From: Actinoplanes octamycinicus
GTDB lineage: Bacteria > Actinomycetota > Actinomycetes > Mycobacteriales > Micromonosporaceae
Direction of reading: 5' to 3'
Length of the DNA: 64,000 nt
NCBI RefSeq assembly: GCF_014205225.1
Contig: NZ_JACHNB010000001.1
Coordinates: 9,777,501 to 9,841,500 of the forward strand
Part shown: in pieces, positions 8,345 through 64,000 of the stretch
Position numbering within the stretch: the stretch's first letter is position 1
How the letters are laid out: each line of letters starts with the position of its first letter
Notes under the pieces: model-generated
What the model saw: the letters and a program-made list of their open reading frames with translations, nothing else
Database searches by the model: none
Told to the model about the DNA's origin: nothing
Program-made: the position numbers and the translations under genes

Positions 8345-8346
8345 CG

Positions 8347-8533
8347 CGCGCTGTCTCCCATCCGGACTGTCTGACCAGGCATGTCGCCTGATCAACCGTC
8401 GGCCCCGGAGTCTCACCAGGTCCACCGGCCGTCGTGGTACGGACGTCCGGGTCGCGGGCTTACCGCCGCGCTGGCCAGGGGCCAGGCAACGGATCACCGC
8501 CGGTTCGGAATTTCACCGAGTCCCGCCAGCGCG
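8347..8533 (-). ncRNA. FMN riboswitch aptamer (RFN element)
   Basis: The minus strand carries the conserved RFN core. It shows GGTGAAATTCC and ACCGGCGGTGATCC near the 5' side (around 8490-8519), AGCCCGCGA in the middle (around 8451-8460), and AGTCCGGATGGGAGACAGCG at the 3' side (around 8350-8370). The terminal P1 helix can be drawn from CGCGCTG (8527-8533 complement) and CAGCGCG (8347-8353 complement). It precedes ribD, so FMN should repress the rib operon. The promoter is not clear: only about 60 bases separate the aptamer from the preceding aminotransferase gene. Confidence 0.95.
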
Positions 8534-8595
8534 TGGTGGGTTACCCCCGAGTCTTGCACGCGCCGGCGGATTTGCCACCCCGGGCGCGAGGGATC

Positions 8596-40209: not shown

Positions 40210-40419
40210 CGACCGCGGCCCGGCCAGGCTTGGTCGAGGTGATCGGTAGGGATTCTCAGGCCCGCGCTGCCCACTCAGATGGCGGGGTGTGGCTTTCTCC
40301 CGGCTTGAACCCTGCCGGTCACCGTGGCGCGGAGTGGCTTGAGAGGGGTTTGCCCAGCTGTAAGTAGCGATGCCCTCCCGCCGGCGTTGTGTGCTGCGAC
40401 GACGGGAAGGTTACCGACG
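40210..40419 (+). ncRNA. Candidate bridge RNA / left non-coding end of IS110 element
   Basis: IS110-subgroup recombinases are known to use a bridge RNA transcribed from the left non-coding end. This 210-base segment has the right place and size. It can form small hairpins, for example GGCCA/TGGTC near 40232-40245. I cannot assign the donor and target loops from sequence alone. Confidence 0.4.
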
Positions 40420-41598
40420 ATGGGTCAGCTGATCATTGGGGTCGATCCGCACAAGCGGTCCGCGACGATCGAGATCATCAACGAGCGTGAACAGGTACTG
40501 GCCCGCGGTAGGTACGGCACCGACACCGGCGGCTACCAGCAGCTGCTCGCTGCCGGCCGCCGTCACGCCGGCCGGGTGTGGGCGGTCGAGGGCTGTAACG
40601 GCATCGGCCGGCACCTGGCCCAGCGGCTGGTCGCCGACGGCGAAACCGTGCTGGACGTCCCGGCGAAACTCGCCGCGAAAGCCCGCAACTTCGACACCGG
40701 CCACGGCCGCAAAACCGACGGTCACGACGCCCACCACATCGCCGTGACAGCGCTACGCACCCCGGGCCTGCACCAGGTTCGTGCCGACGGCGCCACCGTC
40801 GCGCTGCGGCTGCTGGCCGACCGCCGCGACCAGCTCGGCGCCACCCGCACCGAGACCATCAACCGGCTGCACCAGCTACTGCTCGAACTGATCCCCGGCG
40901 GCGCGAAGAAGAACCTGACCACCGACCAGGCCCGCACCCTGCTCGAACGCGTCAGCGTCCCGGCCGGCGACATCGTCACCGCCACCCGCTATCAGCTGGC
41001 CGGCGACCTGGTCGACGAGCTCACCACCCTGGACACCAAGATCAAAGCAGCCAACCGGCAGCTGACGACCGTGCTGGCCGCCACCGGCACCCAGCTGACC
41101 AGCCTCAACGGCATCGGCCCCTCCGGCGCCGCCCGCCTGCTCGGCGACATCGGCGACATCCACCGCTTCCCGACCCGCGGACACTTCGCCACCTGGAACG
41201 GCACCGCCCCCATCGACGTGTCCTCCGGCGACCATCACCATCACCGGCTCAACCGGGCCGGGAACCGGCGCATCAACCGGGTCCTGCACATCATGGTCAT
41301 CACCCAGCTCCGCTACGACACCCCCGCACGCGCCTATTACCAGCACAAACGCGCCGAAGGCAAAACCGCGATGGAAGCCATGCGAGCGTTGAAACGACGC
41401 CTGTCCGACACCGTCTACCGACAAATGATCAAAGACGCGGCAGCCGCAACAACCCCGGCGACGGATCCGGGAGGACACACGGGGGCGACTCGAAACTCCA
41501 GCGCGGCCGACCCAAACCCCAAGATCGACACTTCGGAAAAGTCACAACCCGGACCCGCCAACCACCACCCTAAAACATCCCCCACACCAACCCCTTGA
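40420..41598 (+). CDS. IS110 family transposase (bridge-RNA-type recombinase)
   Basis: About 392 aa. The N-terminal RuvC-like DEDD domain shows Asp9 in GVDPHK, Glu57 in WAVEGCNG, and Asp100/Asp103 in KTDGHDAHH. The C-terminal Tnp_20 domain has LNGIGPSGAARLLGDIG and a Ser-Ser-Gly at 268-270 (DVSSGDHHHHR), where the family's catalytic serine is expected. The Pro/Thr-rich tail after residue 345 is likely disordered. All visible catalytic residues are intact, so the enzyme may be active. ATG 40420 is preferred over an in-frame upstream start because it gives the family N-terminus. Confidence 0.92.
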   Translation: MGQLIIGVDPHKRSATIEIINEREQVLARGRYGTDTGGYQQLLAAGRRHAGRVWAVEGCNGIGRHLAQRLVADGETVLDVPAKLAAKARNFDTGHGRKTDGHDAHHIAVTALRTPGLHQVRADGATVALRLLADRRDQLGATRTETINRLHQLLLELIPGGAKKNLTTDQARTLLERVSVPAGDIVTATRYQLAGDLVDELTTLDTKIKAANRQLTTVLAATGTQLTSLNGIGPSGAARLLGDIGDIHRFPTRGHFATWNGTAPIDVSSGDHHHHRLNRAGNRRINRVLHIMVITQLRYDTPARAYYQHKRAEGKTAMEAMRALKRRLSDTVYRQMIKDAAAATTPATDPGGHTGATRNSSAADPNPKIDTSEKSQPGPANHHPKTSPTPTP

Positions 41599-42636: not shown

Positions 42637-43827
42637 TCAGCAGAGCGGGATGCCGTTCTTGCAGGCGAGCTGGGTGTTCCGGACGTGGTCCTCGCCGGTC
42701 TTGCCGTAGGCCATCGTGCCCTTGGTGTCGATGCTGATGAAGTAGTAGTACGGGAAGTTGTTGGTCGGGTTCATCGCGCCCTTGAGCGCCACCTCGCCCG
42801 GGTTGCCGATCGGCCCCGGCGGCAGGCCCGACTTGTCGTGCGTGTTGTACGGGTTGTTCGGGTTGTGCAGGTCGGCCTGGGTCAGCTTCTCGGACGGCTT
42901 GACCTTCTTGCCGGTGATCCGCAGCCAGTAGTTGACCGTGCTGTCCAGCCCGAGGCACTTGCAGTCGAAGTCCCCGTACGCCCGGTTGTAGATCACCCGG
43001 GACACCTTGGCCATGTCGACGTCCTTGAGCGCCTCGGCCTGCGCGATCGACGCCACGATCAGCGCCTGGTAGGGCGAGATCCCGCCGCGGGTCTTCTGCA
43101 CCGTGGCGACGAACTCCAGCCGCTCCATCTCGGCGTTGAAGTTCGCGATGATCGCCTTGAGCACCCCGGTGGCGTCCGCTCGCGGCGACAGCTCGTAGGT
43201 CGCCGGGTAGAGGAAGCCCTCGATGTCGGTCTTGTCGACCTTCTTGCCGTCGGTCCGGGTGAACCAGGACTCGTCGACGCCGAGCCCGATGGGGTTCTTC
43301 GCCGCCTTCTCGAACTCGGCGACCGGGATCTTGGTGGCTTCCGACAGCTTCTGGAAGGTCTGCTGGTAGGACAGCCCCTCCGGCAGGGTGACCTTGGTGA
43401 CCCAGCGGCTCTTCGGGTCGAGCAGCGCGGCGAGGGCGTCGCTCGCCTTCATCTCGACCCGCAGCTTGTACCACCCGGCCTGGATGTTCTTGCTGCGGTT
43501 GTTGTCCTTGGCGGCGCCGGTGAACGCGTCGACCGAGGCGACCACCTTCTGCTGCACCAGCGTGGTGCCGATGTCGGTGGCCGACTGCCCGGACTTGATC
43601 TCGACGATCGCCTCGGCGCCGCCCGGTCCCGGGTAGTCGTCGTCGACGAAGAAACCCTTCACCTTGCTGTACGCGTACCACCCGCCGCCGGCCAGCAGGC
43701 CGAGCAGGACCAGGCTCATGAAGAACGCGACCGCCGAGCGCCCGCCCCGGCCCCGGGCACGGCGCCGTGTCTCGGCCGGTCTCGCCTGTTCCTCTTCCTC
43801 CAGCACCGCATCGAGATCGTCAAGCAT
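42637..43827 (-). CDS. mltG: Endolytic transglycosylase MltG-like protein, copy 1
   Basis: A membrane-anchored peptidoglycan terminase of 396 aa: acidic N-terminus, one transmembrane helix (about 32-54), a LysM-like region and a YceG domain to the end. The active-site region reads IVASIAQAEALKD; the position matching the first Glu of the usual ASIVEKE motif is Gln263, and Glu265 remains. DSTVNYWL and NPYNTHDKSGLPPGPIGNPG are typical. Four cysteines (289, 291, 389, 396) are shared with copy 2. ATG 43827 uses a GGAGG that lies in a 22-base copy of the ruvX 3' end. Confidence 0.87.
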   Translation of the reverse strand: MLDDLDAVLEEEEQARPAETRRRARGRGGRSAVAFFMSLVLLGLLAGGGWYAYSKVKGFFVDDDYPGPGGAEAIVEIKSGQSATDIGTTLVQQKVVASVDAFTGAAKDNNRSKNIQAGWYKLRVEMKASDALAALLDPKSRWVTKVTLPEGLSYQQTFQKLSEATKIPVAEFEKAAKNPIGLGVDESWFTRTDGKKVDKTDIEGFLYPATYELSPRADATGVLKAIIANFNAEMERLEFVATVQKTRGGISPYQALIVASIAQAEALKDVDMAKVSRVIYNRAYGDFDCKCLGLDSTVNYWLRITGKKVKPSEKLTQADLHNPNNPYNTHDKSGLPPGPIGNPGEVALKGAMNPTNNFPYYYFISIDTKGTMAYGKTGEDHVRNTQLACKNGIPLC

Positions 43828-43969: not shown

Positions 43970-45160
43970 TCACCCGCAGATCGGAATACCGTTCTTGCAG
44001 GCGATTTGCTTGTTCTTCTCATGGTCGTCGTTGGTCTTGCCGTACGCCATGGTGCCCTTTTTATCAATCGTCACGAAGAAGAAGTTCTGGCTCTTCGGAG
44101 CGGTGATCGCACCCTTCAGGGCCACCTCGCCGGGATTGCTGATCGGGCCGACCGCCATCCCCTTGACGTCATAGCTGTACGGATTCTTCGGGTCGTGCAG
44201 CTCGGAGGCGAGCAGCTTCTCCGAGGCCTTCGCGTCCTTCCCGCTGATCCGCAGCCAGTAGTTCACCGTGCTGTCCAGCTGCAGGCAGCCACACGGGAAG
44301 GTGCCGAGGTAGGCGCGGTTGTAGAGCACCCGCGCCACCGGCCCCATGTCCTCCGGCAGCAGCGCCTCCACCTGCGCGATCGAGCCGGCGACCAGCGCCT
44401 CGTACGGCGAGATGTGCAGCTTGCTGGTCGCCTGGTTGGCGAAGTCCAGCTCCTTCATCTCCGCGTTGAAGTGCGCGACCATCGTCTGCAGGATCTTGGT
44501 GGCGTCGGCGTCCTTCGGGAACTCGTAGGTCGCCGGGTACAGGAAGCCCTCGATGTTGGTCTTGTCGACCTTCTTGCCGTCCTGCCGCTTGAACCACAGC
44601 GCCGGCACACCCAGCTTCTGCGGGTCCTTCGACACCTTCTTGAACTCGGCCACCGGGATCTTCGTCGCCTGCGAGAGCTTGTCGAAGATCTGCAGCGAGA
44701 TCAGGCCCTCCGGGATGGTGACCTTGGTGACGTTCTTGTTCTTCAGATCGAGCAGCGCGGTCAGCGCGTCGGCGGCCTTCATCTCCTTGCGGAGCAGGTA
44801 CGATCCGACCTGAATGTCCTTGCTTTTCGGGTTCTCCTTGGCGGCGTCGACGAACGCCGCGGCGCTCTTCACCACACCCAGGGTGTAAAGGGTGTTGGCG
44901 ATCGCCGTCGCGCTGTCGCCGGACTTCACCTCGACGACCACCGAACCGGTCCCCGGACCGGGGTAATCCTCGGCCGAGAAGAAGCCCTTCACCTTGCTGA
45001 TCCCGAAGTAGGCCCCGCCGCCGAGCGCGCCGAGCAGCACGATGACCAGGGTCAGCGTGAGCAGGGTGCGACCGCGGCCACCGCCTTTCCGCTTGCGGTG
45101 CCGCCATCGGCCCGGGTCCTCGCCGGCCCCTTCGAACGCGTTATCCAACTCGTCGATCAA
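43970..45160 (-). CDS. mltG: Endolytic transglycosylase MltG-like protein, copy 2
   Basis: 396 aa, the same length and layout as copy 1, and roughly half identical over the whole length. One transmembrane helix (about 32-53), then the YceG domain with LVAGSIAQVEALLPEDM (Gln, then Glu, as in copy 1), DSTVNYWLRISGK and the C-terminal IACKNGIPICG. Start is TTG at 45160, immediately after the ruvX TAA, with GGAGG nine bases upstream inside ruvX. It holds the ancestral position next to ruvX, so it is probably the original gene. Role: cleaving nascent glycan strands. Confidence 0.88.
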   Translation of the reverse strand: MIDELDNAFEGAGEDPGRWRHRKRKGGGRGRTLLTLTLVIVLLGALGGGAYFGISKVKGFFSAEDYPGPGTGSVVVEVKSGDSATAIANTLYTLGVVKSAAAFVDAAKENPKSKDIQVGSYLLRKEMKAADALTALLDLKNKNVTKVTIPEGLISLQIFDKLSQATKIPVAEFKKVSKDPQKLGVPALWFKRQDGKKVDKTNIEGFLYPATYEFPKDADATKILQTMVAHFNAEMKELDFANQATSKLHISPYEALVAGSIAQVEALLPEDMGPVARVLYNRAYLGTFPCGCLQLDSTVNYWLRISGKDAKASEKLLASELHDPKNPYSYDVKGMAVGPISNPGEVALKGAITAPKSQNFFFVTIDKKGTMAYGKTNDDHEKNKQIACKNGIPICG

Positions 45161-48840: not shown

Positions 48841-49290
48841 TCAGCGACCGGCGCGGCGGCGCCGCTTGATCTCGGTGCGGACCTCGCGGTCCTCCTCGGC
48901 GGCCCGGCGGGCGGCGGTGGCCTTGCGCAGGCCGTACCCGAACGAGGCCACCTTGACCAGCGGGTTCGCGGCGGCGGCGGAGACCACGGTGGTCAGGTTC
49001 GCGATGTTCGCGGTGACGTTCTGCGCGTGCTCGGTCATCGTGTCGACCTTGGCCAGCTGCAGGTTCACGCCGTCCAAAGAGACCTGAACCTGGCCGAGCG
49101 CGGTGTTCACATTCTCCACCGTGGTGTTCACGTTGCCGAGCAGCGGCCCGGTGCGGTCGGTCACCTCATTGATCGCCCGGGTGGCGGCATCGACGGTGCG
49201 GCCCAGCTTCAGGATCGGGAAGGCCAGCACGACGACGAGCATCAGGAAGGCGCCCGCCGCGATCAGACCAGCGATTTCTCCGGCGTCCAT
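48841..49290 (-). CDS. DUF948 domain-containing protein
   Basis: 149 aa with an N-terminal membrane helix (IAGLIAAGAFLMLVVVLAFP) followed by a long helical, coiled-coil-like region with heptad hydrophobics (VNTTVENVNTALGQVQVSLD), then a basic C-terminus (TEIKRRRRAGR). DUF948 proteins resemble general stress or chemotaxis-like helical membrane proteins; no biochemical role is known. It lies 13 bases upstream of the small protein gene and 80 bases after the giant repeat gene. Confidence 0.85.
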   Translation of the reverse strand: MDAGEIAGLIAAGAFLMLVVVLAFPILKLGRTVDAATRAINEVTDRTGPLLGNVNTTVENVNTALGQVQVSLDGVNLQLAKVDTMTEHAQNVTANIANLTTVVSAAAANPLVKVASFGYGLRKATAARRAAEEDREVRTEIKRRRRAGR

Positions 49291-49370: not shown

Positions 49371-52300
49371 TCACGACGCCTGGGGTGTCGGCTCCAAGAG
49401 TGGATCGGCGTCGTCCAGCGTCGGTTCCGGCGTCACGCCGACCGGCCCCGGGTTCTTGTCGACCTTGCCGCGCTCGTCACCGATCTCGTACTGCACCTTG
49501 ATGCTGACCGTCGATCCCTCGCACTTGCCCGCGCCGGTCTCCCCGGCCTCGGCCGCGTCGCTGCCGGCCGGCGGGACCGCCTCCTGAGCCACCTGGTCCA
49601 CCGCGCAGCCCGGCAGGCTGACCAGCATGTCCAGGTTGTACTCGTCGCGTTTCCAGCAGGAGTAGACGCCGTTCTCCGGGTCGACCCGCACCTCCGGGCA
49701 GCCCTTGACCTTCCACCGCTGCCACCCGGCCTCCTCCAGCGCCTTGGTGTAAGCCTGCGCGGTCTCCTGGAACGGGTGCTCGGAGTCGGCCAGCCGTTCC
49801 CGCAGCCGGCACTCGAAGAAGCACCAGCGGCTGCCGGTGGCCACGTCCTGCGGGTTCTTGTCCGCCCAGGCCGGCACGTTCAGCGCGTCCAGTGAGGCGA
49901 AGACCGGGTCGCTGGCGACCGCGCGCAGCCCGAAGAAGGCCGGCAGCACCAGCAGCACCACGGCCGCCAGGGTGGAGAGCGTGATCAGCCGCAGGCGCCG
50001 CTGGGTGCGCAGCTTCTGGCGAAGCTCACCGCGCAGGCCACCCTCCGGTTCGCCGCCGGGTCCGCTGCCGCTCCCGGCCTTTTCCGGTACGGCCGCAGCG
50101 GCTTTCGCCACACCCTTCTCCGGTACGCCGGCGGCCCCGCCCACGCGAGCCACAGCGATCGTCCCGGTCCCGTTCGCGAACCGGTCCCCCGGGCCGTCCC
50201 CGTCACCGGGTCCCTCCCCGAAACCGTCACCGAAGCCGTCGGCCGATCCGTCGCCGAAGCCGTCGGGTCCCGCTCCGAATCCGTCGGGTCCCTCGCCGAA
50301 ACCGTCGCCGTCGCCGGGTCCCTCGCCGAAGCCATGGCCAGGGCCGAAGCCGTCCTCGGGGGCCTTGCCCGGTGCCGGCACCGCCGCCGAGGCCGCGCCA
50401 CGGGGGACGACCGCTGCTGAGGCCGCGCCGCCGGGCACCGCGGCGGCGCCGCGTCCCGGGCCGCTGCCGGGCACACGGGCGGCGCCCCGCCCGGGACCGC
50501 CCGGGTTGCTCCCGGGCACGCTCGCGGCACCACGGCCCGGGCCAGCCGGACCGTTGCCGGGCACGCCGGCCGCACCACGACCCGGACCCGCCGGACCGTT
50601 GCCGGGCACGCCGGCAGCGCCACGACCCGGACCGTTGCCGGGGACTCCGGCGTTGCCGCGGCTGGGACCGCCGTTCGGGTCGGCTCCGGGCGCGCCGGCC
50701 GCACCCCGGCCGGGAGCGCTTCCCGGCACCGAGGCGGCGCCGCGTCCCGGACCGGACGGACCGTTGCCGGGCACGGCGACGGACGCCGCGCCGCGCGGCA
50801 CGGCACCCGGGTCACCGGTCTCCGGGCTGCCCGGACCGCTGGCCGCTCCGGCACCGCGCGGCGAACCGCTCGGGCCGCCGGCCTCCGGACCACCGGGTCC
50901 ACCCTGGCCGGGCACGGCTACCGAGGCTGCCCCGCGTCCCGGACCGCCCGGACCGCCCGGACCGCCCGGACCGTTACCGGGCCCACCCGCGGGTCCATTG
51001 CCGGGCACCCGGGCGGAACCGTTGCCCCGTCCGCTACCACCCCGGCCTCGGGCCGGACCGGTTCCCGACCCGGTACCGGACGCACCGGCCGGACCACCGC
51101 CGGCCATCCCCGCAGGTCCGTTCGGGCCGCCTCCGGGCATGCCCGCCGGACCGTTCGGGCCGCCTCCGGGGATACCTGCCGGACCGCTCGGGCCGCCTCC
51201 GGGCATACCTGCCGGACCGCCGGGGCCGTTGCCGGGCATGCCGCCGGGGCCGTTGCCGGGCGTGCCGGTGGGGCCGTTGCCCGGAACTCGTGCCGCGCCG
51301 CTGCCCGGACCACCCCGGCCGCGAACGGCGGCCGCGCCCGCGGCGCCGGCCCGTGCGCCGCCGGCCGCGGATCGGCCACCGCGCCTTCCGGGCGCCGGGG
51401 ACACCGGACCGCTGCTGGCCATGCCCTGCTCCGGCGCGCCGGTTCCGGCCGCGAAGCCCTGGCTCTGCTCCGGGCCCATGCCATGACGACCCGCCGGCCC
51501 CTCAGGACCGCCGGGCGCGAAGCCCTGACTCTGGTCCGGACCGACCGGGCCACGACCCCGGCCCTGCCCCTGGTTCTGCTCAGGGACCGCCCGGCGACGC
51601 CGGCCGCGCGAGGTCGGCTGTTCCGGCCCAGCCGGGAAGCCCTGGCTCGCCTCGGGCCCACCGGCACCGGGCGGGAAGCCCTGACTCTGGTCCGGGCCGC
51701 CCCTGCCCGCCGGGAAACCCTGGCTCTGCTCGGGCCCGCCGCGACCGGCCGGGAAACCCTGGCCCTGTTCAGGCACACCGCGGCCGGCGGGAAAACCTTG
51801 ACTCCGGCCCGGGTCACCCGTGCCGGCCGGGAAGCCCTGGCTCCGGCCTGGGTCACCCATGCCAGCCGGGAAACCCTGGCTGCGGCTCGGATCCCCGGTG
51901 CCGGCCGGGAAACCCTGGCTGCGGCCCGGATCCCCGGTGCCGGCCGGGAAACCCTGGCTGCGGCCCGGATCGCCCGTGCCAGCCGGAAAACCCTGGCTCT
52001 GGCTCGGATCGCCCATGCCGGCGGGGAAAGCCTGGCTCTGGCTCGGGCTGCCCATGCCGGCCGGGAAGCCCTGGCTCTGGTCGGCAGCGCCGCGGCCGGC
52101 CGGGAAGCCGGGCTCGGCCTGTGCGCCGACCAGGTCGGCGAAGGGGGAGTCGGCCGGGATCCGGCTGCCCGCTGTGTCGCCGCGACCGCGCCGGCCCGGA
52201 CCCGGCTGGCCGGGTACCGGGACACCGCCACCGGGGCCCGGGTTCGCGCCCTGCCGGCCCGCGGTCTGCTGACCCGCTTCGAGCGAACGCCGGTCCGTGG

Positions 52301-55300
52301 TGAAGCCGTCCTCGTCCGGCTGGAGCTGACCGTTGCCGCCGCGCGGACCGGGACGCTGGATGACACCCGAGGTGCTCTCCGCCATCGCGCCCGCGCGCCC
52401 GGGCACGGCCGGGGCACGCTTGCCCTGCCGTCCCGGCACCACCGGCGGCACCACGGCAGCAGCTCGGATCGGCCGCCCGTCACCGGGCCCGGCCCGCCGG
52501 GGACCGGGCACGCTGCCCGTGCCCGCTCCGCCCGGCTGCTCCGGACCCTGCGGCCCTTCACCGGGCCGACCCGGCCTCCCACCCGGTCCACCGGGACCGC
52601 GCTGACCAGCACCGGGACCATTCAGGCCACCAGGACCGCCCGGGCCACCAGGACCGCCGGGATTCGGACCGCCAGGACCGTTGGGACCGCTAGGACCGTT
52701 GGGGCCACCAGGACCGCCCGGACCGCCGGGACCGTTGGGGCCGCCAGGATTACGGTCGCCAACACCCGGACCGCCGGGACCACGCTGGCCGGCGCCCGGA
52801 CCGCCGGGACCACGCTGACCAGTGCCCGGACCGCTGGGCATGCCGGGGCCGCCGGGCCCGGCGGGAACGCCACGACCTCCGGGGCCGCGCTGCGGCGCGC
52901 CCGGACCACCTGCGACGCCAGCCTGACCGGCCGCGCCCCGCGGACCGGAACCCGGGCCGCCGACTCCGGCGGGACCGCGCTGACCAGCGCCGGGAACGTT
53001 CTGCGGGCCGCTGTCCGGTTCGGCGGCACGACGGCCGCCCCGCCCACGCGGAGCGTCACCGGGACGGACGAACCCGTGCGCACCGGTGTCGGCGCCTACC
53101 TCGCGGCCGCCATCCGGCGCTTCGTGCCGTCCGGTGCCCTGCTCCGGGACAGCCGCATGACCTGCCCGGTGCCCGGCCGGACCCTCCGGCTGCGCGTGCG
53201 CGCCCGAGACCGGCCGCGCCGAGCCACCACGCATCCCAGCGGGACCACCCACGGGTCCGTCCGGCTGTGCGTGCGCGCCCGAAACCGGCCGCGCCGAACC
53301 ACCACGCACCCCACCGGCAAACCCGTCCGGCTGCGCGTGCGCGCCGGAAACGGGCCGGGCCGAACCACCACGCGTCCCCCCGGCAAACTCGTCCGGCTGC
53401 GCGTGCGCGCCGGAGACCGGGCGGGCCGAACCACCGCGGACCCCGCCCGGACCAGCTGCCGTTCCGTCCGGGGCAGCGTGCGAGGGAGCGGCGTGCGAGG
53501 TCGGCGCACCGGAGACCGGGCGCGGCGCGCGGCCGCCGTAACCGCCGTCCGGGTCGCCGAAGCCACCGGGCTGCGCACCGCCAGGAACGCCCGCGCCATA
53601 ACCACCGGGCTGCGCGCCGCCGGGCTGTGCACCGCCGGGTGCGGCCGCGCCGTAACCACCGGACTGCGCGCTGCCGGGTGCGGCCGTGCCGTAGGCACCG
53701 GGCTGGGCGCCACCGGGCGCGCCGGACACCGGGCCCGGGGCGGTGGCGCCGTAGACGCCGGGCTGGCCGGCCGCCTCGGCGCGGGCACGACGGTTGCGTC
53801 CGCGGCTGGTCCGCTCGGCGGGATCGCCCGGGGCACCGGCTCGGCCCCGGCCGTCGTCAGCGCCCGGGATCGGGCCGGTCTGGTAGACGCTCGGCGGGAC
53901 CGGGTCAGCCTGGTAGACACTCGGCGGCACGGGGTCGCCGGGGAAGCCGCCACCGGCCGGCGGGATCGGCCCGGTCTGGTAGACGGCGGGCGGGATCGGG
54001 CCGGACTGCTGGGCGTCGCTACGGAACCGGTCACGGGCCGGGCCGGCCGGGGAGGTCGGGCGGATGCCGGGAGAGACCGGGCGTACGCCGGAAGTCATCG
54101 CACGGGGCTCACCCGGCGTCGCGCCGCGCGGATCGACCGGCGCGGCGCCTCGCGGATCCGGCGCGGGACGCGCGCCGGGGATCTCCGGAGCGTTCCCGGA
54201 GCGCGGCACCACCGGCGGCGCGGCGGGATCCGGATAGCCCGGAGCGCCACCCGGCTGACCGGCCTCGGGCGGCATACCGGCCCGGCCGGGCGACACCGGC
54301 GCGCCGGGCATGCCCCGGCGGGCGGCCGGAGGCATCTGACCGGGCGGCATCTGACCGGGCGACACCGGCTTCGGCGGGAGCTGACCGCCGCCACCGCGCT
54401 GACCGGGCGGCACCTGGCCAGGCATCGGACCCTGCTGGCCGGGCCGTCCCGGCGCTCCACCGGGCGGCATCGCTCCGGGAATCGCGCCGGACATGTGACC
54501 GGGCGCTTGTCCCTGGGGCCGGCCGGGAGCCTGCCCCTGGGGCTGACCGGGCCTCTGCGGCTGGCCGGGCATCTGCCCCTGCTGTCCGCCGGGGATCGGG
54601 GCGCCCCGCTGGCCGGACGGCACCGCGCCGGGCGGCATCTGCCCCTGCGGACCCATTTGCCCTTGAGGACCCATTTGCCCCGGCACTCCGGGACGACCGG
54701 GCGACACCTGCCCCGGTCCTCCAGGACCGCCTAGCTGCGCCGCCGGCATCTGACCGGAAGGCATCTGACCGGGAGCGGGCTGCCCCGGATTCACCGGCGC
54801 GGCGGCGCCCTGAGCGCCAGGACCCATCCGCCGGACCGGCGGCGCCTGCCCGCCAGCGACCGCGCCGGAACCGGCAGCACCGGCGGGACCACCGGAAACC
54901 GGCCCGGGACGCGACCCGGGCGCGGGAGAACGCTGCGCCGGGCCGGAGTACTCCCCCGACCCCGCCTGCCAGCCGGGCGCGGGCGGGCGCTGCACCGGGC
55001 CGGAGAACTCACCGGAACCGGCCTGCCAGCCGGGCGCCGGACCACCCGCGGCCGGCTCGTCCGGCTCGAAGCCGCCGCCGAAGACCGGGCCGTCGTCCTC
55101 CGGGCGATCGTCCGGGCCGGGCGCCATCCGGCCCGACTTGCTGGTCCGGGCCTCACCGGGCGCAGCACCGGGGCCGATCGCACCGCCCTGCTCCTTGGCC
55201 GACCACAGGTCGTCGAGCCAGCCGGTCTCCTCGCGCGGGATCTCGACCGGCTCGGCCGGCTGCTCGGCGCGGCCACGCCCGAAGCGGCGGCCCTTCTTGC

Positions 55301-55349
55301 CGCCGCCCTGCCCGGCGTCGTCGGGCCGTTCGGCTCCGCGCGGAGTCAC
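49371..55349 (-). CDS. Giant Pro/Gly/Ala-rich repeat protein with one transmembrane segment and six-Cys C-terminal domain
   Basis: A protein of 1992 aa that I do not recognise. Residues 1-85 are charged ([14 protein letters not shown] is the one ordered-looking piece). Residues about 86-1780 are almost entirely P, G, A, Q, S, R in several tandem repeat families and have no recognisable fold. A basic stretch ([12 protein letters not shown]) precedes one membrane helix at about 1788-1808. The last 185 residues carry six cysteines (about 1843, 1847, 1884, 1898, 1915, 1943) and end in an acidic Pro-rich tail. By the positive-inside rule the repeats are cytoplasmic and the Cys domain outside. GTG 55349 overlaps the rarA stop. 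One frame stays open for 6 kb through repeats, which supports translation. Confidence 0.8.
50440..50780. repeat. Repeats coding for GRGAA.VPGN.P units in the giant gene
   Basis: Tandem units translating as [15 protein letters not shown] and variants ([21 protein letters not shown]). Period about 10-15 residues with good nucleotide similarity between neighbours. Confidence 0.75.
51600..52120. repeat. 39-bp tandem repeat, about 13 copies ([13 protein letters not shown])
   Basis: On the minus strand about 13 consecutive 13-residue units follow the pattern GFPAG-x-G-x-P-x-x-S/G-Q, the central ones nearly identical at DNA level. The outer units are more degenerate, as expected for expansion from the middle by slippage or unequal crossover. 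Confidence 0.88.
52610..52870. repeat. Collagen-like GPx stretch in the giant gene
   Basis: Translates to runs of [19 protein letters not shown] type with Gly at nearly every third position over about 80 residues. Short GPx runs may form flexible or polyproline-type structure; a collagen triple helix in the cytoplasm is not expected. Confidence 0.7.
53180..53460. repeat. About 66-bp tandem repeat, 4 copies ([18 protein letters not shown])
   Basis: Four units of about 22 residues translating as [21 protein letters not shown] with minor changes and one short internal insertion. High nucleotide similarity between copies. Confidence 0.8.
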
Positions 55350-57091
55350 GGCTGTTCCTTCCCGGCGGCGTCGCCGCTCTCGTCTGACCGCACTTCGTCA
55401 CCCTCGGCATCCGGTCCGGCCGCTGCCGCACCCGATCCCGTCACCGCCTCCGGCCCGTCGGCCACGACCGACGCCTCCGCATCGGCCACGGCATCCCCGG
55501 CTGGAGCGGAACCGCCCGGAGCACCGGCCACCGACGACCCCGCCGGAGCGGGAGCGCTAGGAGCACCAGCAACCGACGACCCCGCCGGAGCGGAATCCAC
55601 CGGATCACCGGCCACCGGACCCGCCGAGGCGGATGCCGGCGAACCGGAGGCCACCGGCGACTGTGACGCATCCGGGCCCGGAGCACCACCCGCCGCGCGG
55701 TTCGCCCTGCCCGCCGAAGCGGCACGGGGAGCCAGCCCCCGCACGATCCGGCGCAGGCGAGGCACCCGCTCACCGACGGCGCGCTCGGCCCCGTGGTCGG
55801 TCGGCCGATAGTAGTCGGTGCCGACGAGATCATCGGGGACGTACTGCTGGCGGACGACGCCTCGCGGGTCGTCGTGCGGGTAGCGGTAGCCGCGACCGTG
55901 ACCAAGACCACGTGCGCCGGAGTAGTGCGCGTCGCGCAGGTGGGTCGGCACCGGCCCGCCCCGGCCGGCCCGCACGTCGGTCATCGCCGCGCCGATCGCC
56001 GTGGTGACACTGTTCGACTTGGGGGCGGTGGCCATGTGCACGACCGCCTGGGCCAGGTTGAGCTGGGCCTCGGGCATGCCGATCAGCTGCACCGCCTGGG
56101 CCGCCGCGGTCGCCACCAACAGCGCCTGCGGGTCGGCCATCCCGACGTCCTCGCTCGCGAAGATCACGATGCGCCGGGCGATGAACCGCGGGTCCTCGCC
56201 GGCCACGATCATCCGGGCCAGGTAGTGCAGCGCGGCGTCCGGGTCGCTGCCCCGCATGCTCTTGATGAACGCGCTGGTCACGTCGTAGTGCGCGTCGCCG
56301 TCCCGGTCATAGCGCACGGCCGCCACGTCGACCGCGCGCTCCGCGGTGGCCAGGTCGATCTCGGCGGCGCCCTGGGCGAGCGCGGTGCTCGCGGCGGCCT
56401 CCACGGCGGTCAGCGCCTTGCGCACGTCGCCCGCGGCCAGCCGTACGAAATGGTCCTCCGCCTCGGAGGAGACCGTGACCGCCCCGCCCAGCCCGCGCGG
56501 ATCGGTGATCGCGCGCCGGATCAGCCGGCGCACGTCATCCTCCTGCAGGGCTTGCAGGGTCAGCAGGACGCAGCGGGAGAGCAGCGGCGAGATCACCGAG
56601 AAGTACGGGTTCTCGGTGGTGGCGGCGAGCAGCGTGACGGTCCGGTCCTCGACCGCGGCGAGCAGCGAGTCCTGCTGGGTCTTGCTGAAGCGGTGCACCT
56701 CGTCGATGAACAGGACGGTCGGCGGGCCGCCGCGCCGGCGCTCGGTGCGCGCCGTGTCGATCACCGCGCGCACGTCCTTCACCCCGGCGGTGAGCGCGGA
56801 CATCGCCACGAACTTGCGGTCGGTGGCGTGCGCGACCAGGTGCGCGATCGTGGTCTTGCCGGTGCCGGGCGGCCCCCAGAGGATCACCGACATCGGGCTC
56901 GACCCGGTCACCAGCTGGCGCAGCGGCGCGCCGGGGGCGAGCAGGTGCTGCTGCCCGACGAGCTCGTCGATGCTGGCCGGGCGCATCCGGACGGGGAGGG
57001 GGGCATCCGCCGCGGGTGCGCCGAAACCGGCGGCCGGAACCGCTGTCGACGAGTCCGGCTGCGCGAGTGAGAAGAGCCCGTCCATGTCCAT
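55346..57091 (-). CDS. rarA: Replication-associated recombination protein A (RarA/MgsA) with disordered C-terminal extension
   Basis: AAA+ ATPase acting at stalled replication forks. 581 aa; the family is usually about 430-450. Walker [17 protein letters not shown], Walker [15 protein letters not shown], sensor 1 [10 protein letters not shown], and a C-terminal MgsA block with [20 protein letters not shown] and [12 protein letters not shown]. After about residue 450 comes an Ala/Pro/Ser/Gly-rich tail with repeats ([12 protein letters not shown]). Its stop overlaps the GTG of the giant repeat protein (GTGA), coupling the two. Confidence 0.93.
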
Positions 57092-63100: not shown

Positions 63101-64000
63101 CTATTCCGGCACCAGCCAGGAAGTGGCCCGCAGCCCAGCCGTGCCGATCCCGCCCACCTCAGTGATCTCCACCAGCACCAACTTGGCCGGCTCCGCCGCG
63201 GTCAGCACGCACAGCGCCGCACCCTTTCTGACCTGCACCTCAGCCCCCGGCCCGAGCGGCCCGGTGCGAATCGCCCGCAGACACCCCGCCGCGTCGAGAT
63301 CGCCGTTCGGCACGCTGCTCCCGGCCACCGAACCCACCGCCAAGGTCAGCCGAGCCGGCCCATTCCCGCACCGGCTGTCATAACGCAGATCCGCGACCTG
63401 CTCGGAAACCCCGGCGCGAGGTTCGTCGAGATCCAGGTAGACCAGCGCGGCACAGCCGATCCGCACATGCAGAGCCTCTTTCGCGTACGTCACCGCCGGC
63501 CCCACCGACGACTGCGCCACCGTGGGAACCGCCTCAGGCGCCGCCACCGGCGTGGCAACCAACCGGTAGACGAGATACCCGCTGGCCCCACTCCCGGCCA
63601 GCGCCAGCAAACTGACCAGCAGCGCGACAACCGCCAGCCGCCGTCCACCCTTACCCCCGGGAGCCGGCAGCCGCTCGGTAGCCCCTTGCTCAGTGGGCCA
63701 CCAAGGCGTCCGCGAAACCCCCACGTCCCCGGAAGTCACCCCCACCGACGGCGGCCCCGGCACCTCCCGCGTCCGCCCCGACGCCGCCTGCACCCCTCCC
63801 GGCACCGCCCGCACCCCTCCCGGCGCCGCTTGCACCCGTCCCGACGCCGCTTGCACCCGACCCGGCGCCGCCTGCACCGGCCCCGACGCCGCCTGCACCC
63901 GACCCGGCGCCGCCTGCACCCGACCCGGCGCCGCTTGCACCCGCCGCCCCGGCGCCGCCTGCACCCGGCCCGACGCCGCTTGCGCCCGACCCGGCGTCGC
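63101..64000 (-). CDS. Membrane protein with heptapeptide-repeat N-terminus (partial)
   Basis: About 300 residues are visible and the 5' end is outside the window, because the frame and repeats continue to base 64000. The N-terminal part is a run of VQAAPGR-type heptapeptides, followed by a Pro-rich linker, a basic KGGRR, one membrane helix ([20 protein letters not shown]) and an external domain of about 140 aa with four cysteines ([31 protein letters not shown]). No family recognised. The layout (disordered repeats, one helix, Cys-bearing outer domain) resembles that of the giant protein at 49.4-55.3 kb. Confidence 0.7.
63770..64000. repeat. 21-bp tandem repeat (VQAAPGR)
   Basis: About ten consecutive 21-base units on the minus strand encode [21 protein letters not shown] and similar heptapeptides, reaching the window edge. 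Units differ mainly at one or two bases. Confidence 0.85.

Follow-up and report, generated by a model that had tools for sequence, protein, structure and literature searches.

The receptor kinase PknH joins its cytoplasmic part through one membrane helix to an extracellular, disulfide-bonded sensor, and the divisome proteins ZipA and FtsK carry Pro/Gln-rich disordered linkers between their membrane part and their functional end. Low-complexity parts of very great length on the cytoplasmic side have, to our knowledge, received little attention in bacteria, possibly since gene finders can miss them. In this study we analysed a 64,000-nucleotide stretch of the Actinoplanes octamycinicus genome (contig NZ_JACHNB010000001.1, positions 9,777,501 to 9,841,500; hereafter the window), in which one minus-strand frame directly behind rarA encodes a repeat-rich protein of 1992 amino acids (aa) with a single predicted membrane helix and a six-cysteine C-terminal domain. 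Its architecture varies a known theme, that of membrane-anchored proteins whose linkers are disordered, while its sequence family is unnamed in Pfam and NCBIfam, and no report about this protein was found in the open-access literature. It can be likened to ZipA and FtsK by layout only, i.e., a membrane anchor, a long Pro/Gln-rich spacer and a conserved distal end, but its spacer is much longer and its distal end is a short peptide instead of a folded domain; unlike PknH, it has no kinase. The report on SspA of Actinoplanes missouriensis describes a putative disordered surface-related protein that is sortase-dependent and anchored outside on the spore wall (PMC13293333). In contrast, the disordered part of the 1992-aa protein is predicted to lie inside; inspection by eye revealed neither a sortase signal or export of the SspA type, the C-terminus being the cysteine domain and a polar tail, nor a signal peptide at the N-terminus, where the sequence is polar and charged. 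The parts of the gene are as follows.

49371..55349, minus strand: whole gene, 1992 aa, GTG start (open reading frame and coding tests)
55125..55349, minus strand: conserved N-terminal module, residues 1-75, RGAERPDD ... ETGWLDDL ... IGPG ... RTSKSGR (18-species alignment)
55185..55238, minus strand: core of the N-terminal motif, residues 38-55 (18-row alignment)
50106..55124, minus strand: low-complexity, repeat-rich, cysteine-free part, residues 76-1748 (composition, repeats, coding tests)
54168..54206, minus strand: island 1, residues 382-394 (pattern count across long frames)
52359..52460, minus strand: island 2, residues 964-997 (pattern count across long frames)
51631..52106, minus strand: largest tandem array, 39-base unit (13 aa, ...SQGFPAG.G.P...), 12.2 copies (Tandem Repeats Finder)
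49989..50045, minus strand: basic stretch ahead of the helix (sequence)
49923..49988, minus strand: single predicted membrane helix, from residue 1788 (sequence; helix 2-41 of a 221-aa model)
49470..49910, minus strand: outer six-cysteine domain, residues 1814-1960 (63-row alignment and structure model)

The whole 1992-codon frame is a real gene and truly coding. A preliminary description made from the letters alone had placed one 6-kb frame at exactly these coordinates, and the worry it attached to the frame, that frameshifts or misassembled repeats had created it, is refuted for the window by stops, phase and codon-position tests. For comparison we hand-picked 40 related loci from 40 genomes among the matches, so as to spread over genera; with the window these make 41 loci, of which 33 are long (26 intact and seven irregular) and eight are short (175-197 aa). 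Across the low-complexity part of the 26 intact long frames, 24,093 codons in all, not one own-frame stop occurs, whereas base composition would give 215, and the other five frames over the same stretches hold 82, 255, 36, 361 and 74 stops. Because the first codon-position test selected columns by amino-acid identity, a criterion that on its own favours changes at third positions, it was redone on frame-blind nucleotide alignments of the low-complexity part; both versions agree. In the frame-blind version, third-position changes were highest in seven of seven pairs, about three- to tenfold (13, 9 and 64 changes at positions 1, 2 and 3 between the window and locus L053), every well-aligned column was in phase, and 46 gaps were multiples of three while two were not. 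The long frames on other strands of this GC-rich DNA, for instance those of 1083 and 706 aa on the plus strand, have the look of ordinary spurious frames. The product of the 1992-aa frame, read from 55349 to 49371, has a calculated mass of 187 kDa.

The public records could be taken to mean that translation begins at an internal start and yields only a short C-terminal protein with the helix and the outer domain, the upstream frame being filler. A profile of the protein's end, in a search admitting about 120-400 aa, matched 519 proteins, many of the 120 listed ones coming from short metagenome contigs, whereas a search with a single sequence, run on proteins longer than about 1100 aa, gave one match, of 1140 aa, from Krasilnikovia; sizes between about 400 and 1100 aa were searched with the N-terminal module only. 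Since these searches differ in kind and many records stem from short metagenome contigs, 519 versus one is no fair ratio. Short genes with their own rarA-linked start do exist in eight of the 41 loci, and four public records that we matched to loci carry only the last 18-22 % of the frame: 301 aa where the frame has 1570 codons (L052), 229 aa where it has 1046 (L061), 214 aa where it has 1165 (L058) and 288 aa where it has 1538 (L089). Full-length records exist nevertheless, as the N-terminal module is held by three Catellatospora records of 698-745 aa and the Krasilnikovia record begins with it. Together with the codon-position signal, the phase, the lack of stops, the conservation of the module across genera directly behind rarA and the conserved islands within the low-complexity part, they make an internal start for the only product unlikely. 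Gene finders may drop the low-complexity part because of its odd codon usage: its GC content at third codon positions (GC3) is 0.78, compared with 0.92-0.98 in alaS, aspS, one mltG, aroE and the DUF948 gene, and GGT makes up 34 % of its glycine codons, unlike in the neighbours. The record names 'integrin beta 3' (JGI) and 'Collagen alpha-5(VI) chain' (UniRef) were taken as low-complexity mislabels.

Residues 76-1748 consist largely of Gly (29 %), Pro (18 %), Ala (14 %), Arg (7 %) and Gln (6 %), and we infer from this composition that the long N-terminal part is disordered. At least four tandem-repeat families had been anticipated, and several distinct units were indeed found, including GFPAG (11 times), PGNGP (nine), GRGAA (nine), DGFG (six) and RPVSGA (five). 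Within the frame, Tandem Repeats Finder listed 33 rows, and in 32 the period is divisible by three, although the rows overlap and are hence not independent. The predicted basic patch, single helix and six-cysteine outer domain were likewise borne out: the helix is visible in the sequence as one hydrophobic segment, the 25 residues ahead of it hold seven Lys or Arg, and the only cysteines of the protein (1843, 1847, 1884, 1898, 1915 and 1943) all lie past the helix. The six are all aligned in 59 of the 61 membrane-form rows of a 63-row alignment made up of the window, 60 of 68 domain sequences and two lipoproteins (L009, L029, L041, L042, L046, L048, L081 and L085 were omitted). The lipoproteins stand at the same locus in one genus (L103 and L105), with an LTGC motif that we take to be lipobox-like and a homologous domain. 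Their domains score 21.3 and 19.2 bits, compared with 6.1 for the best of 1000 shuffles, and the hhalign score is 38.7, while the best of 100 column shuffles reached 22.7; an hmmsearch of whole six-frame translations of ten matchless loci had missed both, and scoring the pieces alone found them. The homologous lipoprotein form supports an outside location of the cysteine domain. Because basic residues precede the helix, all cysteines follow it and the lipoprotein form carries a homologous domain, an N-in/C-out topology with a cytoplasmic low-complexity part, one helix and a compact outer cysteine domain appears well supported. The lipoprotein rows retain only the third and fourth of the six cysteines, from which 1884 and 1898 are predicted to form one pair.

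The outer domain is common to the membrane forms and, going by the alignments, homologous in the lipoprotein form, and it belongs to an unnamed family. Pfam and NCBIfam gave chance-level rows only for the protein or its outer domain, so that the earlier statement that no family is recognised was right at the sequence level for these two collections. Neither LppA (PF16708) nor Lpp-LpqN/MTC28 (PF10738) nor PknH_C (PF14032) matched any of the 63 ectodomains at E <= 0.5, and hhalign gave 0.2 % for a 12-row LppA alignment, 0.2 % for Lpp-LpqN/MTC28 and 0.4 % for PknH_C, a weak test in that the PknH_C, LpqN and LppA alignments do not find one another either. The three comparison alignments exclude ten loci whose family matches were partial or weak (L130-L133, L138, L164, L166, L172, L175 and L177). 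PF14032 was absent from the genome of the window in a profile search, and a sequence search of solved structures gave one row, at E 0.18. The structure model of the outer domain (pLDDT 84.1, pTM 0.77) has the predicted order strand-strand-helix-strand-strand-(helix)-strand, which resembles that of the Mog1p/PsbP-like domains of PA1624 (N-terminal domain), EagT6/SciW (DUF1795) and DcrB. Mog1p/PsbP-type entries fill eight of the first ten rows of a structural comparison, with scores of 8.3 for 1tu1, 8.3 for 6td9, 8.2 for 6xrf, 7.9 for 6xrb, 7.6 for 6xrr, 7.2 for 6e8a, 6.9 for 9mvg and 6.6 for 2v7s, while MTC28 (4pws) scored 5.5; LppA, MTC28 and 1tu1 are presumably of the same kind. The model weakly suggests that the outer domain may have a fold like that of Mog1p/PsbP-type domains. 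The resemblance does not decide between the sensor and wall-binding roles envisaged for the domain in the preliminary description. DcrB and the N-terminal domain of PA1624 have been described as Mog1p/PsbP-like (PMC7716261).

The layout also fits a family-specific, kinase-less receptor, in which the outer domain would sense a ligand and signal through the helix while the low-complexity part would cluster or phase-separate. We regard this as a doubtful possibility, considering that no folded signalling domain was seen inside and that the above comparison, weak as it is, showed no profile relation to PknH_C.

The cytoplasmic part is not featureless. The N-terminal module shows no variation at M1, E40, E41, G43, W44 and L48 across 18 of 18 rows, each from a different species, and the motif GW[LI]..L occurs in 25 of the 26 intact long frames, with a like motif in six of the seven irregular ones, i.e., in 31 of the 33 long loci. 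A search of the own genome for a second copy of the module found none (next match E 2.5), and among 121 genomes of the order there were 12 hits, all in the same family. The islands emerged when 14-residue windows of the protein were compared with the remaining 25 intact long frames, shuffled sequences serving as controls. Island 1, P.[ST]GN[AP][PR], is present in exactly one copy in 23 of the 26 intact frames (missing in L068, L080 and L083) and also occurs in six of the seven irregular loci, giving 29 of the 33 long loci. Its pattern appeared in 19 of 5200 shuffled sequences, a figure that flatters the islands because the patterns were chosen after the alignments had been inspected; the single-copy presence across genera is the stronger argument. 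Island 2, P[VA][VM]PGRAGAMA, was found in each of the genus's 15 intact frames but not in any of the 11 others, and its 42-aa neighbourhood matched elsewhere in the own genome at E 0.18 or worse. The long form of the window is one of the 23 intact long frames that carry both the N-terminal motif and island 1. These observations bear on whether the expansion is mostly neutral, with a functional N-terminal motif and outer domain and with repeats that are slippage tolerated in a very GC-rich genome. The hypervariable length and repeats and the unusual third-position usage would be expected from such slippage, but the N-terminal motif, island 1, island 2 and the helix keep a constant order in each intact frame having them, every intact frame with the N-terminal motif has a spacer (the shortest long-form protein is 558 aa), and the low-complexity part is free of cysteine in all 26 intact frames, which together leave mostly neutral expansion improbable.

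Conservation of the C-terminal domain, which had been proposed as a check, was found in 137 of 150 genomes of the family Micromonosporaceae and in 39 of its 44 genera, with one match per genome save one genome with two pieces; in about 100 of the 150, the frame open around the domain spans 550 codons or more. Each of the 24 genus genomes searched had the helix and six-cysteine domain, and a search of 16 genomes belonging to other families gave no match. A class-wide search of 296 genomes, which scored nine candidates per listed genome and may miss distant members, matched four, namely the own genome, two of Micromonosporaceae and one 45-position piece (E 6.7e-4) that is probably a chance match. 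At the sensitivity used there is no convincing match outside, and the sequence family appears confined to Micromonosporaceae. We read ten loci from the 13 family genomes lacking a match (G041, G077 and G128 were not among them). In addition to the two lipoproteins, seven loci of two genera have a rarA-DUF948 gap of 85-194 bases with no room for the gene, and in L109 the 369 bases between rarA and DUF948 hold no frame of 70 codons. On a tree of RarA from 51 loci, two changes are required to account for the long form, and the 33 long loci group with three gene-less ones under a branch of 100/99 support. The simplest history of the long extension would be one gain and one loss, a single gain being well supported by this tree. 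The short forms stand on the first branches by midpoint rooting only, which is a drawing choice, and for this reason the short form is no more than likely to be older than the long one.

We hypothesize that the protein crosses the membrane once, N-in/C-out, and serves as a scaffold or tether whose docking peptides lie in the cytoplasm, a reading that, taken as a whole, we hold with about even confidence. The N-terminal extension of roughly 1,770 residues, present in one group of the family, would lie disordered in the cytoplasm, where its conserved peptides (the N-terminal module and the islands) may dock one or more partners and the repeat-rich stretches between them may act as flexible spacers setting reach and local crowding. 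The outer domain, perhaps Mog1p/PsbP-like and with up to three disulfides, would bind an envelope ligand or partner, so that the protein could keep an assembly in the cytoplasm close to a given site or state of the envelope. The scaffold role had already been suggested in the preliminary description and gains some support from the conserved islands. Several observations weigh against our reading: the gene is dispensable in two genera, the spacer is variable in both length and repeats, the long loci L083 and L085 have no N-terminal motif, and in L075, L081, L084 and L086 this motif is out of the frame of the outer domain, through either gene breakage or assembly error. A bolder version, which we put forward only tentatively, is that the protein is a multi-dock scaffold of very large size in the cytoplasm, gained once within the family by addition ahead of an old surface protein. 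Its three conserved peptides would let it seed a condensate or assembly, attached to the membrane, at a selected site of the hypha, while a Mog1p/PsbP-like outer domain would read the envelope state. The family offers a natural series for testing the spacer length and the docking peptides, from the lipoprotein through the bare membrane form to forms of 558 to 1992 residues, and the conserved peptides offer a means to fish out partners. It also adds an unnamed outer cysteine-domain family to a major antibiotic-producing bacterial family.

The gene lies between two conserved neighbours in a genome of 10.28 Mb assembled in one contig.

55346..57091, minus strand: rarA (MgsA_C, AAA), upstream and overlapping (Pfam)
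48841..49290, minus strand: DUF948 gene, downstream neighbour (Pfam)

The position after rarA, proposed earlier as a synteny check, holds in 41 of 41 loci, and DUF948 follows in 40 of 41 (it was not found for L070). The rarA stop and the GTG start share four bases, GTGA, with a GAAGGAA stretch five bases before the start. In 32 of 41 loci, the window included, an ATG or GTG lies in frame exactly at -4, counted from where the rarA stop ends; L079 has its start at -1, L073 at -11, and seven of the 41 loci have no such start. This overlap could be taken to indicate that the protein tethers RarA or the replication fork to the membrane, with co-translation loading RarA onto a docking peptide. However, the overlap also occurs in seven of the eight short forms, which have almost no cytoplasmic part, and rarA remains where the gene has been lost, hence it needs no contact between the proteins. 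Because the coupling is equally strict in the short forms, we do not favour the RarA tether and consider it very unlikely.

RarA itself has an extra low-complexity Ala/Gly/Pro/Ser tail past its last Pfam domain (residues 447-581; 55346-55753, minus strand), with a 42-base tandem repeat at 55496-55617 and a GC3 of 0.71 compared with 0.94 in the core. The DUF948 gene is followed by a DUF6167-like gene (20.7 bits, under the Pfam cut-off of 27), beyond which alaS, ruvX, two mltG-like genes and aroE were named by eye from their translations; the mltG-like genes stand in tandem at 42637-43827 and 43970-45160 (minus strand). Elsewhere in the window, a 424-aa frame at 40324-41598 (plus strand) reads by eye like an IS110-type transposase, and a flavin mononucleotide (FMN) riboswitch was found at 8346-8534 (minus strand, 70.4 bits). 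A 287-aa frame at 63101-63964 (minus strand), with QAAPGRV repeats, one hydrophobic segment and a cysteine-containing end, has a layout similar to that of the 1992-aa protein but looks unrelated to it by eye; its single weak Pfam row (E 0.0096) lies far under the cut-off of that family.
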